64,000 bases of DNA from positions 2,914,001 through 2,978,000 of the forward strand of contig NZ_CP047027.1 in assembly GCF_009797025.1 (NCBI RefSeq). The letters are read 5' to 3'. Each line of letters opens with the position of its first letter. The stretch's first letter is position 1. This DNA comes from Cellulophaga sp. L1A9 (lineage in GTDB: Bacteria > Bacteroidota > Bacteroidia > Flavobacteriales > Flavobacteriaceae). Below the pieces are notes generated by a model. The model made no database searches and was not told the DNA's origin. It worked only from the letters and a program-made list of their open reading frames with translations. A program made the position numbers and the translations under genes. Shown piece after piece: positions 50,646 through 52,843 of this stretch.

Positions 50646-51287
50646 TTATTGTGTTTTTAGTGAGTTTCGTAATCTTTCTTTTTTGTATTCTGGTAAAGCA
50701 TCATTGCTCAAAATTAACTGGACCACTTCAGGGTCTTTGTTTTTTGAGAACAAAAATTGATAGTATTGATTAATGGTTAAGCTATTTTCAGATTGGGAGA
50801 TGAGTACCATTTCGTCACCTGCGGTAACCGCTCCAGGTTCTAAAATTTTTATGTAGGTGCCAGGGTAATTGTGTTGTACAAATTGTTTGATGATTTTAGA
50901 ATCATTAAATCGTATCCCTAATTTGTAGCATGGCTCTCTGGGCTGTGTAATTTGGACTAGTGCAGTACCAATTTTGTAGGTGTCACCAATTCTTAATTCA
51001 GACTCATTGAGACCTTCAATAGTTAAGTTTTCGCCGAACATTCCCCAATCCCATGTTAAATCTGGATACAGGTTTTTCCAATACGGATATTGATCTGCGG
51101 AGTACAGGTAACAAGCTTTGTTGGTACCACCATGGTGTTTTCTATCTATTACCGTGTCCTTGGCAACATCTTCTTTCAAAAGCTGTATAGCCTCTGAAGT
51201 TGGGTATTTGTAGATTCCTGTTTGTTCTTCTTTACCATTCCATTGAATAGTAGTAGACTTTCCTAAGTTGGTTGAAATTACCTTCAT
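50646..51287 (-). CDS. MOSC domain-containing protein
   Basis: A molybdenum-cofactor-sulfurase C-terminal (MOSC) protein of about 213 residues, YiiM-like. Motifs: DRKHHGGTNKACYLYS, GMFGENLTIEGL, the conserved Cys region TQPREPCYKLG, and a C-terminal alpha-helical extension. It may carry sulfur or the molybdenum cofactor or act on N-hydroxylated substrates. I start it at ATG 51287 (MKVISTNLG). An in-frame ATG at 51311 would add MMVFYLYN, but those codons lie in the terminator stem of the upstream gene, so that start is rejected. The DUF885 gene follows 4 bp later. Confidence 0.9.
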   Translation of the reverse strand: MKVISTNLGKSTTIQWNGKEEQTGIYKYPTSEAIQLLKEDVAKDTVIDRKHHGGTNKACYLYSADQYPYWKNLYPDLTWDWGMFGENLTIEGLNESELRIGDTYKIGTALVQITQPREPCYKLGIRFNDSKIIKQFVQHNYPGTYIKILEPGAVTAGDEMVLISQSENSLTINQYYQFLFSKNKDPEVVQLILSNDALPEYKKERLRNSLKTQ

Positions 51288-51299
51288 GTTATAAAGATA

Positions 51300-51332
51300 G
51301 AAAACCATCATAGATTAGTATGATGGTTTTTT
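51300..51332 (-). terminator. Rho-independent terminator of the DUF6249 gene
   Basis: Stem AAAACCATCATA / TATGATGGTTTT with a 5-nt loop; T-rich after it on the - strand. It lies between the DUF6249 stop and the MOSC start. Confidence 0.85.
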
Positions 51333-51357: not shown

Positions 51358-51705
51358 CTAGTTTGATAGTTTTTTACTAACGAAGAAACCTACTAAAAGA
51401 CTAATACCCGCCATTAAAAATATAGTGCCAGGATAAGCAACTTCGGAAAGCACTCCAATAGTAGCAACCAAAACGGAGGCTATAAATATTGCCAAGCCTA
51501 TACCAATTAATAATAAGGCAAAATTTAAGATAAATATTTTCCATACAGGAGAAGCATTTTCACTTCTACCTTTGTTAAAAATACTGGCATCTGTTCCTTT
51601 TTCAATAAGAGCCATACGTTCTCTGTTACGCGTTGAATAATAGAGGTAAGTAATTCCGAAAACTACTAAGAAAAAACTAACTGGGATTAAAATTGCTACT
51701 GCCAT
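51358..51705 (-). CDS. DUF6249 family two-helix membrane protein
   Basis: A 115-residue membrane protein. An N-terminal helix (VAILIPVSFFLVVFGITYLYY) is followed by a charged segment with the family motif RNRERMALIEKGTD, then two further hydrophobic stretches (ILNFALLLIGIGLAIFIASVL and a Gly-rich end FLMAGISLLVGFFVS). The family is widespread next to sigma factors in Bacteroidota and its function is unknown. The promoter TGTAACC-N16-CGTC on the - strand is the same as that of the divergent ECF sigma gene, so it is inferred to be a member of that sigma's regulon. Confidence 0.88.
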   Translation of the reverse strand: MAVAILIPVSFFLVVFGITYLYYSTRNRERMALIEKGTDASIFNKGRSENASPVWKIFILNFALLLIGIGLAIFIASVLVATIGVLSEVAYPGTIFLMAGISLLVGFFVSKKLSN

Positions 51706-51749
51706 GCTGATTGTTTTTTAATTGATTAATTTAATACGTTCAAGTATAT

Positions 51750-51776
51750 GACGAATAATTATTCCTCGCGGTTACA
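51750..51776 (-). promoter_or_regulatory. ECF-type promoter of the DUF6249 gene (TGTAACC-N16-CGTC)
   Basis: On the - strand TGTAACC (51776-51770), a 16-nt spacer and CGTC (51753-51750). The -35/-10 shape is that of extracytoplasmic-function sigma promoters. The start codon is 45 bp downstream. The two promoter boxes are an exact mirror of those for the sigma gene. Confidence 0.72.
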
Positions 51777-51799
51777 TAAATTATTTTTTTTATGAATTA

Positions 51800-51826
51800 T
51801 GTAACCCTGATTGTTTTTTATTCGTC
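51800..51826 (+). promoter_or_regulatory. ECF-type promoter of the sigma gene (TGTAACC-N16-CGTC)
   Basis: TGTAACC (51800-51806), a 16-nt spacer and CGTC (51823-51826), identical in boxes and spacing to the divergent promoter. The ATG of the sigma gene is only 11 bp after CGTC, so the transcript would have a very short leader or none. Self-transcription by the encoded sigma is the simplest reading. Confidence 0.72.
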
Positions 51827-51837
51827 TAATCAATTAA

Positions 51838-52422
51838 ATGAACAAGCGCCACGACCAACATTACATAGATGAAACATTAAGAGGTGATGCTCAAGCTTTT
51901 TCTGTATTGATTAATACCTATAAACATATGGTCTTTACCGTAGCATTAAAAATAACTAATAATAGAGAAAATGCAGAGGAGGTTGCTCAAGATACTTTTG
52001 TGAAGGCATACCATTCTTTAGCTACCTTTAAAGGAGCATCAAAATTTTCTACGTGGATTTATAAGATAACGTACTACGGCGCATTAGATTATTTGAAGAA
52101 AAATAATAGGAGAATTAAAACAAGTACAATCGAATCGGACCACGATATTAATCTATCAGAGCTTACAAACGTATTGGATGAGCTTGAGTTGAAAGACCGA
52201 CAAAATTGTATTAAAGAATCTCTGGATCAATTGGGAGCAGAAGAGTCAGTATTGGTTACCTTACATTATTTTGAAGAATTATCATTACAAGAAATCTCTG
52301 ATATTATTAATATACCAGCAAATACCATTAAGGTTCGCCTATATAGAATTAGAAAAAAATTAGCAGGTATTCTAGAAAAAAAATTAACCCCAGAAGCGAT
52401 TAAAAGTTATGGAAGAAAATAA
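51838..52422 (+). CDS. RNA polymerase sigma factor, ECF subfamily
   Basis: A 194-residue group 4 sigma factor. Region 2 (LINTYKHMVFTVALKITNN, AEEVAQDTFVKAYHSLATFKGASKFSTWIYKITYYGALDYLKK) and region 4 (EESVLVTLHYFEELSLQEISDIINIPANTIKVRLYRIRKKLA) are complete, separated by a short acidic linker. It directs RNA polymerase to stress or envelope-type promoters. The 14-bp overlap with the next gene, a two-helix membrane protein with a cytosolic N-terminus, marks a sigma/anti-sigma pair. Identical promoter elements before this gene and the divergent DUF6249 gene suggest autoregulation. Confidence 0.95.
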   Translation: MNKRHDQHYIDETLRGDAQAFSVLINTYKHMVFTVALKITNNRENAEEVAQDTFVKAYHSLATFKGASKFSTWIYKITYYGALDYLKKNNRRIKTSTIESDHDINLSELTNVLDELELKDRQNCIKESLDQLGAEESVLVTLHYFEELSLQEISDIINIPANTIKVRLYRIRKKLAGILEKKLTPEAIKSYGRK

Positions 52423-52843
52423 TAATAGAAACGATTTTGATGCCTTTTTGCGTAAAGCAATAAAAGAAGTAGGTGTAGAAGAGCCAAGTAAAGATTTTAA
52501 CCAATCTATTCTCTCAAGGCTACCTTTGGTTCAAGAAAGATCAATAAGTAGTCAACCACCATTAATTTCTAATTTTGTGTGGTTCCTAATTTCTTTTGGA
52601 GTTTTTGCTTTAATAGGCTTTGCTTTACTATATGATGAAGAAACTAAAGTAAATGGTGCTGATTTTAAATTTCTAAATAATTTAAGAGTTCCAAATTTTC
52701 TAGATTTTAATATAAATTTTGTTTCCTCAGACGTAGCATTCTATGGAATCATCAGTGTCTTAGTCTTTTTTTATATTCAAATTTTTGTACTAAAAAAATA
52801 CTTTTCAATGCATGATTATGCTCTTAATCAGTATATTAAATAG
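52409..52843 (+). CDS. Two-helix membrane protein, putative anti-sigma factor
   Basis: A 144-residue protein. The first ~60 residues are soluble and charged (NDFDAFLRKAIKEVGVEEPSKDFNQSILSRL), followed by one hydrophobic helix (FVWFLISFGVFALIGFALLY), a periplasmic-size loop, and a second helix (AFYGIISVLVFFYIQIFVL). The order and 14-bp overlap with an ECF sigma gene are those of an anti-sigma factor, which would hold the sigma at the membrane until a signal arrives. No zinc-binding HxxxCxxC motif is present, so it is not a ZAS-type anti-sigma. Function is inferred from position only. Confidence 0.78.
   Translation: MEENNNRNDFDAFLRKAIKEVGVEEPSKDFNQSILSRLPLVQERSISSQPPLISNFVWFLISFGVFALIGFALLYDEETKVNGADFKFLNNLRVPNFLDFNINFVSSDVAFYGIISVLVFFYIQIFVLKKYFSMHDYALNQYIK

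Follow-up and report, generated by a model that had tools for sequence, protein, structure and literature searches.

A mirror pair of putative ECF promoters between a sigma-factor gene and a DUF6249 gene in the Flavobacteriaceae

The divergent gap and its boxes

The window (i.e. the whole 64,000-nucleotide stretch of Cellulophaga sp. L1A9 DNA that was analyzed) contains a divergent gap at 51706-51837, with a DUF6249 gene on its left (minus strand) and a gene for an ECF sigma factor on its right (plus strand). The features treated below are as follows, with the basis of each assignment in parentheses.

51358..51705, minus strand: gene for a 115-aa DUF6249 protein, modelled as three long helices (Pfam PF19762, AF2)
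51750..51754, minus strand: predicted -10 box of the DUF6249 promoter, TCGTC (sequence and conservation)
51770..51776, minus strand: predicted -35 box of the DUF6249 promoter, TGTAACC (sequence and conservation)
51777..51799, no strand: A/T-rich 23-bp stretch separating the two -35 boxes (AT content)
51800..51806, plus strand: predicted -35 box of the sigma promoter, TGTAACC (sequence and conservation)
51822..51826, plus strand: predicted -10 box of the sigma promoter, TCGTC (sequence and conservation)
51838..52422, plus strand: gene for a 194-aa ECF sigma factor with regions 2 and 4 (Pfam Sigma70_r2, Sigma70_r4_2)
51841..51855, plus strand: codons 2-6 of the sigma gene, rich in C at synonymous third positions (codon counts)
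52409..52843, plus strand: putative anti-sigma gene, 144 aa, two hydrophobic helices (open reading frame, AF2)

Two copies of TGTAACC-N16-CGTC run in opposite directions through the gap (minus strand, 51776..51750; plus strand, 51800..51826). All coordinates given for these equally spaced mirror copies in the preliminary description were re-checked and found to be exact, as were those of the nested inverted repeats (51770-51779/51797-51806, 51750-51758/51818-51826, and an outer 11-bp pair at 51718-51728/51827-51837) and of a 14-bp direct repeat (51707-51720/51807-51820). The DUF6249 ATG (51705) is located 44 nt past the divergent-side CGTC. It had also been proposed that the spacers are unconserved and that the boxes alone constitute the code. 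The boxes are indeed kept while the spacers diverge, but the spacer ends in T at both window sites, and the working motif was therefore corrected to TGTAACC-N15-TCGTC.

This motif did not arise in any of 100 simulated 64-kb sequences (first-order Markov), and the only occurrences in the 5.07-Mb, one-contig genome were the two sites in the gap. When the spacing was relaxed to N15-17, two further matches were found in the same genome, both intragenic. The reversed-pattern control also yielded four matches, so the relaxed form is not significant genome-wide by itself; the pairing and the conservation are. The paired boxes are beyond chance.

The flanking genes

Pfam agreed with the identities first proposed for the sigma and DUF6249 genes. 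Regions 2 and 4 were the only sigma regions matched, and the absence of region 3 places the protein among the ECF (group 4) factors. Its closest solved relatives by sequence, aligned over its length, included sigma-H (6in7), SigW (5wuq), and sigma-E (1or7). The scores nevertheless did not reach the curated cut-offs of the SigW equivalog NF007223 (121.8 vs. 209 bits), the RpoE model (114.7 vs. 236.15 bits), and the PG0214/GFO_1088 family NF058625 (87.6 vs. 130 bits). The PG0214 family is presumably that of P. gingivalis SigP.

The putative anti-sigma gene shares 14 nt with the end of the sigma gene. In its AF2 model (mean pLDDT 74), helices span residues 5-20, 30-37, 55-75, and 108-143. A class I anti-sigma domain (ASDI) is a four-helix domain of at least 50 residues; here, about 54 residues forming two helices stand ahead of the first membrane helix, in a model of modest confidence. 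No Pfam family was matched, and a Foldseek search against solved structures (PDB) was empty. Class I anti-sigma factors are reported near only 6% of Bacteroidetes ECFs (PMC7406223, available text), and thus an unrecognized type at this locus is unsurprising.

The DUF6249 protein scored 58.8 bits against PF19762 (cut-off, 33). Its AF2 model had a mean pLDDT of 84, and an RNxERxALIEKG segment was conserved in the alignment. Foldseek returned no match to a solved structure (best E-value 4.6 or worse). On the same strand, DUF6249 is followed by a MOSC-domain gene (window 50646-51311). Of the 67 loci with enough sequence, 16 have a relative of that gene no more than 2.5 kb downstream of DUF6249, in 14 of them as the very next gene, and it may be co-transcribed with DUF6249 in that subgroup.

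Conservation within Cellulophaga

Although an ECF relative of some kind was present in all 18 Cellulophaga genomes, only 10 had a close one (47-100% identity; next best, 33%). DUF6249 was found in exactly those 10 and was missing from the other eight. Inspection of the orthologous gaps had been set beforehand as the refuting test for the promoter code; both sites were present at 10/10 Cellulophaga sigma loci. Both were exact in five, with the N16 spacing and the 11-nt distance between CGTC and the sigma ATG unchanged. The remaining five featured GGTAACC-N15-TCGTC on the sigma side (judged by eye; L010 was also scored), and their divergent sites were exact in four and had CCGTC in the fifth (L011). 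The outer 11-bp inverted repeat, in contrast, proved to be a local feature and not part of the code. By eye, neither it nor the 14-bp direct repeat was present in the distant orthologues L007 and L009; both appeared to be confined to the window and its closest relatives, and they were dropped as functional parts.

The preliminary description had suggested scanning the genome for sites before envelope or stress genes. No wider regulon was visible in Cellulophaga by this means. The strict motif occurred 16 times in the 18 genomes, 14 times in the gaps and twice elsewhere; the reversed-pattern control, which is a rough one as its dinucleotide content differs, gave 15 matches. A one-mismatch search of five genomes added 30 matches, fewer than the control; 29 of these were intragenic, and the other (L277) was 163 nt before an open reading frame. 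Nothing beyond the gap stood out in the exact or the one-mismatch search, and a wider regulon in this genus was rejected as a candidate. Because nearly all of the extra matches were intragenic and less frequent than in the control, the Cellulophaga circuit looks like a closed local loop.

Conservation across the Flavobacteriaceae

Genome contigs were scanned for exact mirror pairs with 10-40 bp allowed between the -35 boxes. At least 117 stretches were found, and 80 of them, most bearing Flavobacteriaceae names, were analyzed. A sigma match was present in 79, a match to the anti-sigma partner in 70 (overlapping the sigma gene in 65), and DUF6249 in 78 (all except L041 and L064). In L057, the sigma match is another ECF gene, and the neighboring one runs off the stretch. 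Within the limits of the search pattern, the -35 boxes of the 79 mirror loci were 21-40 bp apart. The first in-frame DUF6249 ATG was 44-46 nt past its own CGTC in 42/79. The stretch between the -35 boxes had a mean AT content of 0.85 (vs. 0.66 for the loci) and contained an A4/T4 run in 79/79; it is possibly a shared UP-type element.

A family sample of 199 Flavobacteriaceae genomes (198 genera) was examined with a sigma cut-off of E at most 1e-38. The sigma factor was found in 90 of the genomes, representing 89 genera and 91 loci, and strict exact sites were located at no fewer than 150 places. Among the exact matches listed, 38 of the 91 loci had both sites, 6 the sigma-side site only, 19 the divergent site only, and 28 neither. 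The 53 loci without both were rescored from sequence, allowing up to two mismatches, which placed a sigma-side site at 52 and a divergent site at 49 of them. Overall, orthologous gaps in other genera bore out the proposal: at this tolerance, the sigma-side site was present at 90/91 loci and the divergent site at 87/91. The corresponding rates in random windows were about 1% (6/600) for the sigma-side scan and about 3.5% (21/600) for the divergent scan; these windows came from loci with true sites, and exact matches (6 and 23 of 600, respectively) were taken to be those and set aside.

All -35/-10 pairs kept the N16 spacing except for one (G032), in which the spacer was 1 bp shorter. The distance between the two sites, however, reached 96-235 bp in some family loci (G070, G069, G146, G129, and G170), and mirror closeness is thus not obligatory. 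The symmetry of the gap could also be viewed as a functionless local inverted duplication. In favor of this view, both the outer 11-bp pair and the 14-bp direct repeat are restricted to the window and the genomes nearest to it. The persistence of the boxes and their spacing throughout the family, while spacers and flanks diverge, already contradicts this account, and we regard it as exceedingly improbable.

Co-variation of the -10 boxes

Both sides could be scored at 87 loci after exclusion of the four without a divergent site. CGTC was found on both sides at 72, another form on both sides at 6, and another form on only one side at 9 (sigma side, 7; divergent side, 2), an association with p = 8e-5 when loci are treated as independent, i.e. 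ignoring shared ancestry. The T preceding CGTC co-varied as well (on both sides at 42 loci, on neither at 23, on one at 22; p = 1e-5, with the same proviso). These counts suggest that the -10 boxes of the two sides tend to change together, not strictly.

CGTC is not universal, for lineages with AGTC and CATC exist. Among 397 family genomes, 20 had an AGTC mirror site; 7 of them had it on both sides and 13 on one. The seven are G099 and three pairs of species, each pair from a single genus. In a tree built from 56 sigma factors, AGTC on both sides requires about three changes, and one origin may also hold. CATC occupies both sides in G054 and at the second sigma locus of G197, and the sigma factors of these two loci form one supported clade; among the 397 genomes, exact CATC mirror pairs were found in G054 only. 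The one-sided AGTC sites (13/20), along with a site in a genome without the sigma factor (G175, see below), count against a strict code.

The final TC was present in all counted sites, but these were picked by their likeness to TCGTC, and hence this is not independent evidence. The sigma factor SigH of M. tuberculosis is reported to read two unwound -10 bases (PMC6411747, available text), and by analogy the corresponding positions here may be the final TC. A search for a sigma residue that tracks the -10 type gave only a lead: the K-G usually found in the region 2.3 loop is missing from the two CATC sigma factors, but also from two distant sigma factors with CGTC (L064 and L076).

DUF6249 with and without the sigma factor

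PF19762 scored above its cut-off in 105/199 family genomes, including all 90 with the sigma factor, and at 88/91 loci DUF6249 was divergent from and within 600 bp of the sigma gene. In G032, G192, and G137, the DUF6249 gene is displaced; it has its own TGTAACC-N15-nCGTC site with at most one mismatch in each case, and the sigma gene of G137 retains its promoter site, 11 nt from the ATG. Because each displaced gene is accompanied by a site of its own, we argue that each half of the mirror pair is a promoter in its own right.

These displaced genes bear on another reading of the gap, namely that its inverted repeats form the operator for a dimeric transcription factor and are not promoters. In favor of an operator are the palindromic form of the gap in the window and a mirror arrangement that most loci retain. 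Yet the site-to-site distance varies from 21 to 235 bp while the -35/-10 pairs hold N16, and single oriented sites stand before the displaced DUF6249 genes and before remote targets (below). We therefore consider an operator very improbable.

DUF6249 was present without a sigma factor at the cut-off in 15 genomes. In four of these (G023, G054, G145, and G190), a broken or more diverged sigma gene adjoins DUF6249, and both sites are present; in G023 (L292), the sigma gene by the intact mirror pair is a 96-aa open reading frame and apparently broken. Ten of the other 11 were examined (all but G138): nine had no site with up to two mismatches, and G175 had a two-mismatch site. Two of the eleven (G176 and G177) were searched for a sigma gene in the neighboring sequence, and none was found there. 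DUF6249 can thus exist outside of the circuit, and a weak site is possible without the sigma factor. In two of the nine, the small genomes G075 (L389) and G159 (L393), TGTAACC is kept upstream of DUF6249 and the -10 box is gone, possibly through decay after loss of the sigma factor.

Seven extra DUF6249 copies were found in genomes with the sigma factor; two had a two-mismatch site, and five had none with up to two mismatches. The two-mismatch sites, upstream of the copies in G202 (L380) and G034 (L382), read TGAAACC-N15-TAGTC and may represent another promoter code related to the first. In G151 (L332), a second DUF6249 gene adjoins a second sigma relative.

Sites away from the sigma gene

Among the matches listed, 49 exact sites were away from the sigma gene, 27 in genomes with the sigma factor and 22 in genomes without it at the cut-off. 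A script placed 9 of the 27 upstream of an open reading frame in the right direction (19-194 nt distant), 16 within genes, and 2 elsewhere; by eye, the sites of L235 and L250 are also upstream of a gene, giving 11/27. Of the 22, all 20 that were examined were intragenic, and the remaining two are the pair in G023. Upstream placement thus differed between the two groups of listed matches (9/27 vs. 0/20, Fisher p = 0.003; p = 0.0007 with 11). Remote targets appeared only in genera other than Cellulophaga.

The target genes include those for beta-lactamase-fold serine hydrolases, a DUF4440 protein, a DUF5694 protein, and the displaced DUF6249. The hydrolase targets come from five genomes of four genera, and three of them are 52-63% identical. 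In G216, a second species of one of the hydrolase genera, exact sites stand ahead of another hydrolase from that Pfam family and ahead of a 264-aa DUF4440 protein. In its sister G111, the counterpart of the latter site (L273, the second remote site of that genome) precedes only a 78-aa open reading frame with no Pfam match. By eye, the remote targets appear to be secreted or membrane-bound, which fits an envelope role.

The sites could be ECF promoters that are read by a different ECF sigma factor of the cell. The window genome contains 21 sigma-family matches, and overlapping ECF regulons have been proposed in F. psychrophilum, where the SM6 motif has a CGT box (PMC9723704, available text). 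Against this, the eight Cellulophaga genomes lacking a close relative (best identity at most 33%) also lack the paired sites and DUF6249, the listed exact sites examined in family genomes without the sigma factor are all intragenic, and the CATC boxes accompany a diverged clade of this very sigma factor. Reading by another factor is consequently judged quite improbable, and recognition by the adjacent sigma factor is preferred.

The start of the sigma gene

The distance of 11 bp between CGTC and the sigma ATG (51838), noted at the outset, was exact, and the short spacing is conserved (9-12 nt in 72/79 mirror loci). Transcripts of B. japonicum EcfF are reported to begin 6 bp after the -10 box (PMC3420878, available text). 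By that analogy, the sigma transcript would start at about 51832-51834, with a predicted leader of approximately 3-6 nt. This start is unlikely to be misplaced, since the next in-frame ATG is codon 31, inside the region 2 match that begins at residue 24. Leaderless mRNAs form a minority in flavobacteria: they are given as 5.5% in F. psychrophilum (PMC9723704), and 87% of leaders in F. johnsoniae are described as longer than 10 nt (PMC6847099), both according to the available text.

Codon usage directly after this start is unusual. In 74 sigma genes (5 of the 79 had no in-frame ATG at 8-14 nt and were excluded), C occupied 208 of the 264 third positions of codons 2-6 that hold a pyrimidine, compared with 1550/6159 in the rest. 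Among 32 representatives with less than 65% identity, the counts were 81/105 and 716/2587, respectively, and within-gene shuffling gave 30.8 (s.d. 4.4) for the former. Codons 2-6 of 490 other genes from the same loci had C in 381/1120. The bias was absent from DUF6249 (0.33 in codons 2-9 and 0.33 late), and the putative anti-sigma gene displayed only a small rise (0.33 vs. 0.24). Predicted leaderless genes with primary-sigma promoters were too few to judge (n = 6); no bias was seen in them (2/10 positions).

CA repeats that follow the AUG reportedly raise the translation of leaderless and leadered mRNAs alike (PMC9031893, available text), and a tie between the C-rich start and leaderless translation is offered as a hypothesis. 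A DNA or RNA regulatory element, such as an early-transcribed or small-RNA target region, could produce the same pattern independently of leaderless translation. The bias peaks in codons 2-6, right at the predicted transcript start; moreover, the reported effect on leadered mRNA means that CA repeats by themselves are no proof of leaderless translation. On the other hand, what is common across genera appears by eye to be the composition rather than one fixed sequence, though ACC ACC AAC GAC is frequent. We hold the regulatory element to be a substantial possibility, on balance doubtful.

Interpretation and relation to known systems

We are confident that the gap comprises two back-to-back promoters, one for the adjacent, presumably autoregulated operon of the ECF sigma factor and its putative anti-sigma factor and one for DUF6249 as the fixed output. 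The sites, their spacing and conservation, the co-occurrence of the genes, and the partial co-variation are all shown by comparison among genomes. The circuit of sigma factor, anti-sigma factor, and DUF6249 with a defined promoter code, as put forward in the preliminary description, is upheld by this conservation (90/91 and 87/91 loci for the sites; 90/90 genomes for DUF6249). We infer from it that the sites act as promoters, that this sigma factor reads them, and that the overlapping gene encodes its anti-sigma factor; the nature of the signal and the role of DUF6249 are proposed on the same footing.

In the envisioned mechanism, the overlapping anti-sigma protein most likely holds the sigma factor at the inner membrane, from which an envelope signal would free it. 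RNA polymerase carrying the freed sigma factor would then fire both mirror promoters. The sigma-side promoter would yield an mRNA with almost no leader, and from it additional sigma and anti-sigma protein, and the divergent promoter would supply DUF6249, a small three-helix membrane protein by prediction. In a number of other genera, this promoter code would also drive secreted or membrane-looking proteins, chiefly the beta-lactamase-fold serine hydrolase. A more far-reaching version is offered only tentatively: across the family, one ECF sigma factor would be hard-wired to an obligatory output, DUF6249, by mirror promoters whose -10 boxes drift largely in step, and its own near-leaderless, C-rich start would be a dedicated translation route, unlike that of ordinary flavobacterial mRNAs, making a fast, self-amplifying switch.

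Among the most similar described promoters is that of ECF16 (C. crescentus SigF and B. japonicum EcfF), proposed to be tGTAACc-N16-CGAA; EcfF is reported to be autoregulated, with a membrane anti-sigma factor, OsrA, that is a six-helix DUF1109 protein (PMC3420878). As far as the available text of that report goes, the -35 box and N16 spacing match those of the window sites, but the -10 box is CGAA there and CGTC, AGTC, or CATC here, which sets the present sigma factor apart from ECF16; also, the partner here is a protein with two hydrophobic helices that matches no Pfam family, and no DUF6249 partner is mentioned in that text. RpoE/AlgU/SigW-type systems resemble the locus in including the nearest solved relatives by sequence and in having a sigma gene followed by an overlapping membrane-protein gene. 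They differ in that the window sigma factor scores under the SigW and RpoE cut-offs and its putative anti-sigma factor is without a Pfam family. In F. psychrophilum, the SM6 set of ECF-type promoters has a CGT -10 box, includes one ECF/anti-sigma operon, and is described as driving T9SS genes (PMC9723704, available text). The likeness is that of flavobacterial ECF-type promoters with a CGT box; P. gingivalis SigP is a T9SS-control factor as well, and the window sigma factor falls under the PG0214-family cut-off.

Among the open-access papers listed, none was described as covering this circuit, and the one paper listed for DUF6249 concerned a plant kinase family. The kind of system is therefore known (an ECF16-like -35 box and spacing), and the -10 box and partner differ and appear to be new, with the reservation that the motifs of the ECF reclassification lay outside the comparison. 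The results would provide a specific promoter code for an ECF sigma factor found in 89 of the 198 flavobacterial genera sampled and a first regulatory context for DUF6249. The natural CGTC, AGTC, and CATC variants form a set for mapping sigma residues against bases, and the relocated DUF6249 genes offer natural experiments. The near-leaderless start would bear on translation initiation in a phylum described as largely without Shine-Dalgarno sequences (PMC6847099, available text).

Loci in other records

Exact mirror pairs adjoin more distant sigma factors in L076, a Saprospirales record, and in L064, a Muribaculaceae-labelled MAG; no DUF6249 match was found in L064. A Ginsengibacter record (L086), by name from another family, has sigma and DUF6249 proteins about as similar to those of the window as many flavobacterial ones are, and this locus represents either transfer or contamination.
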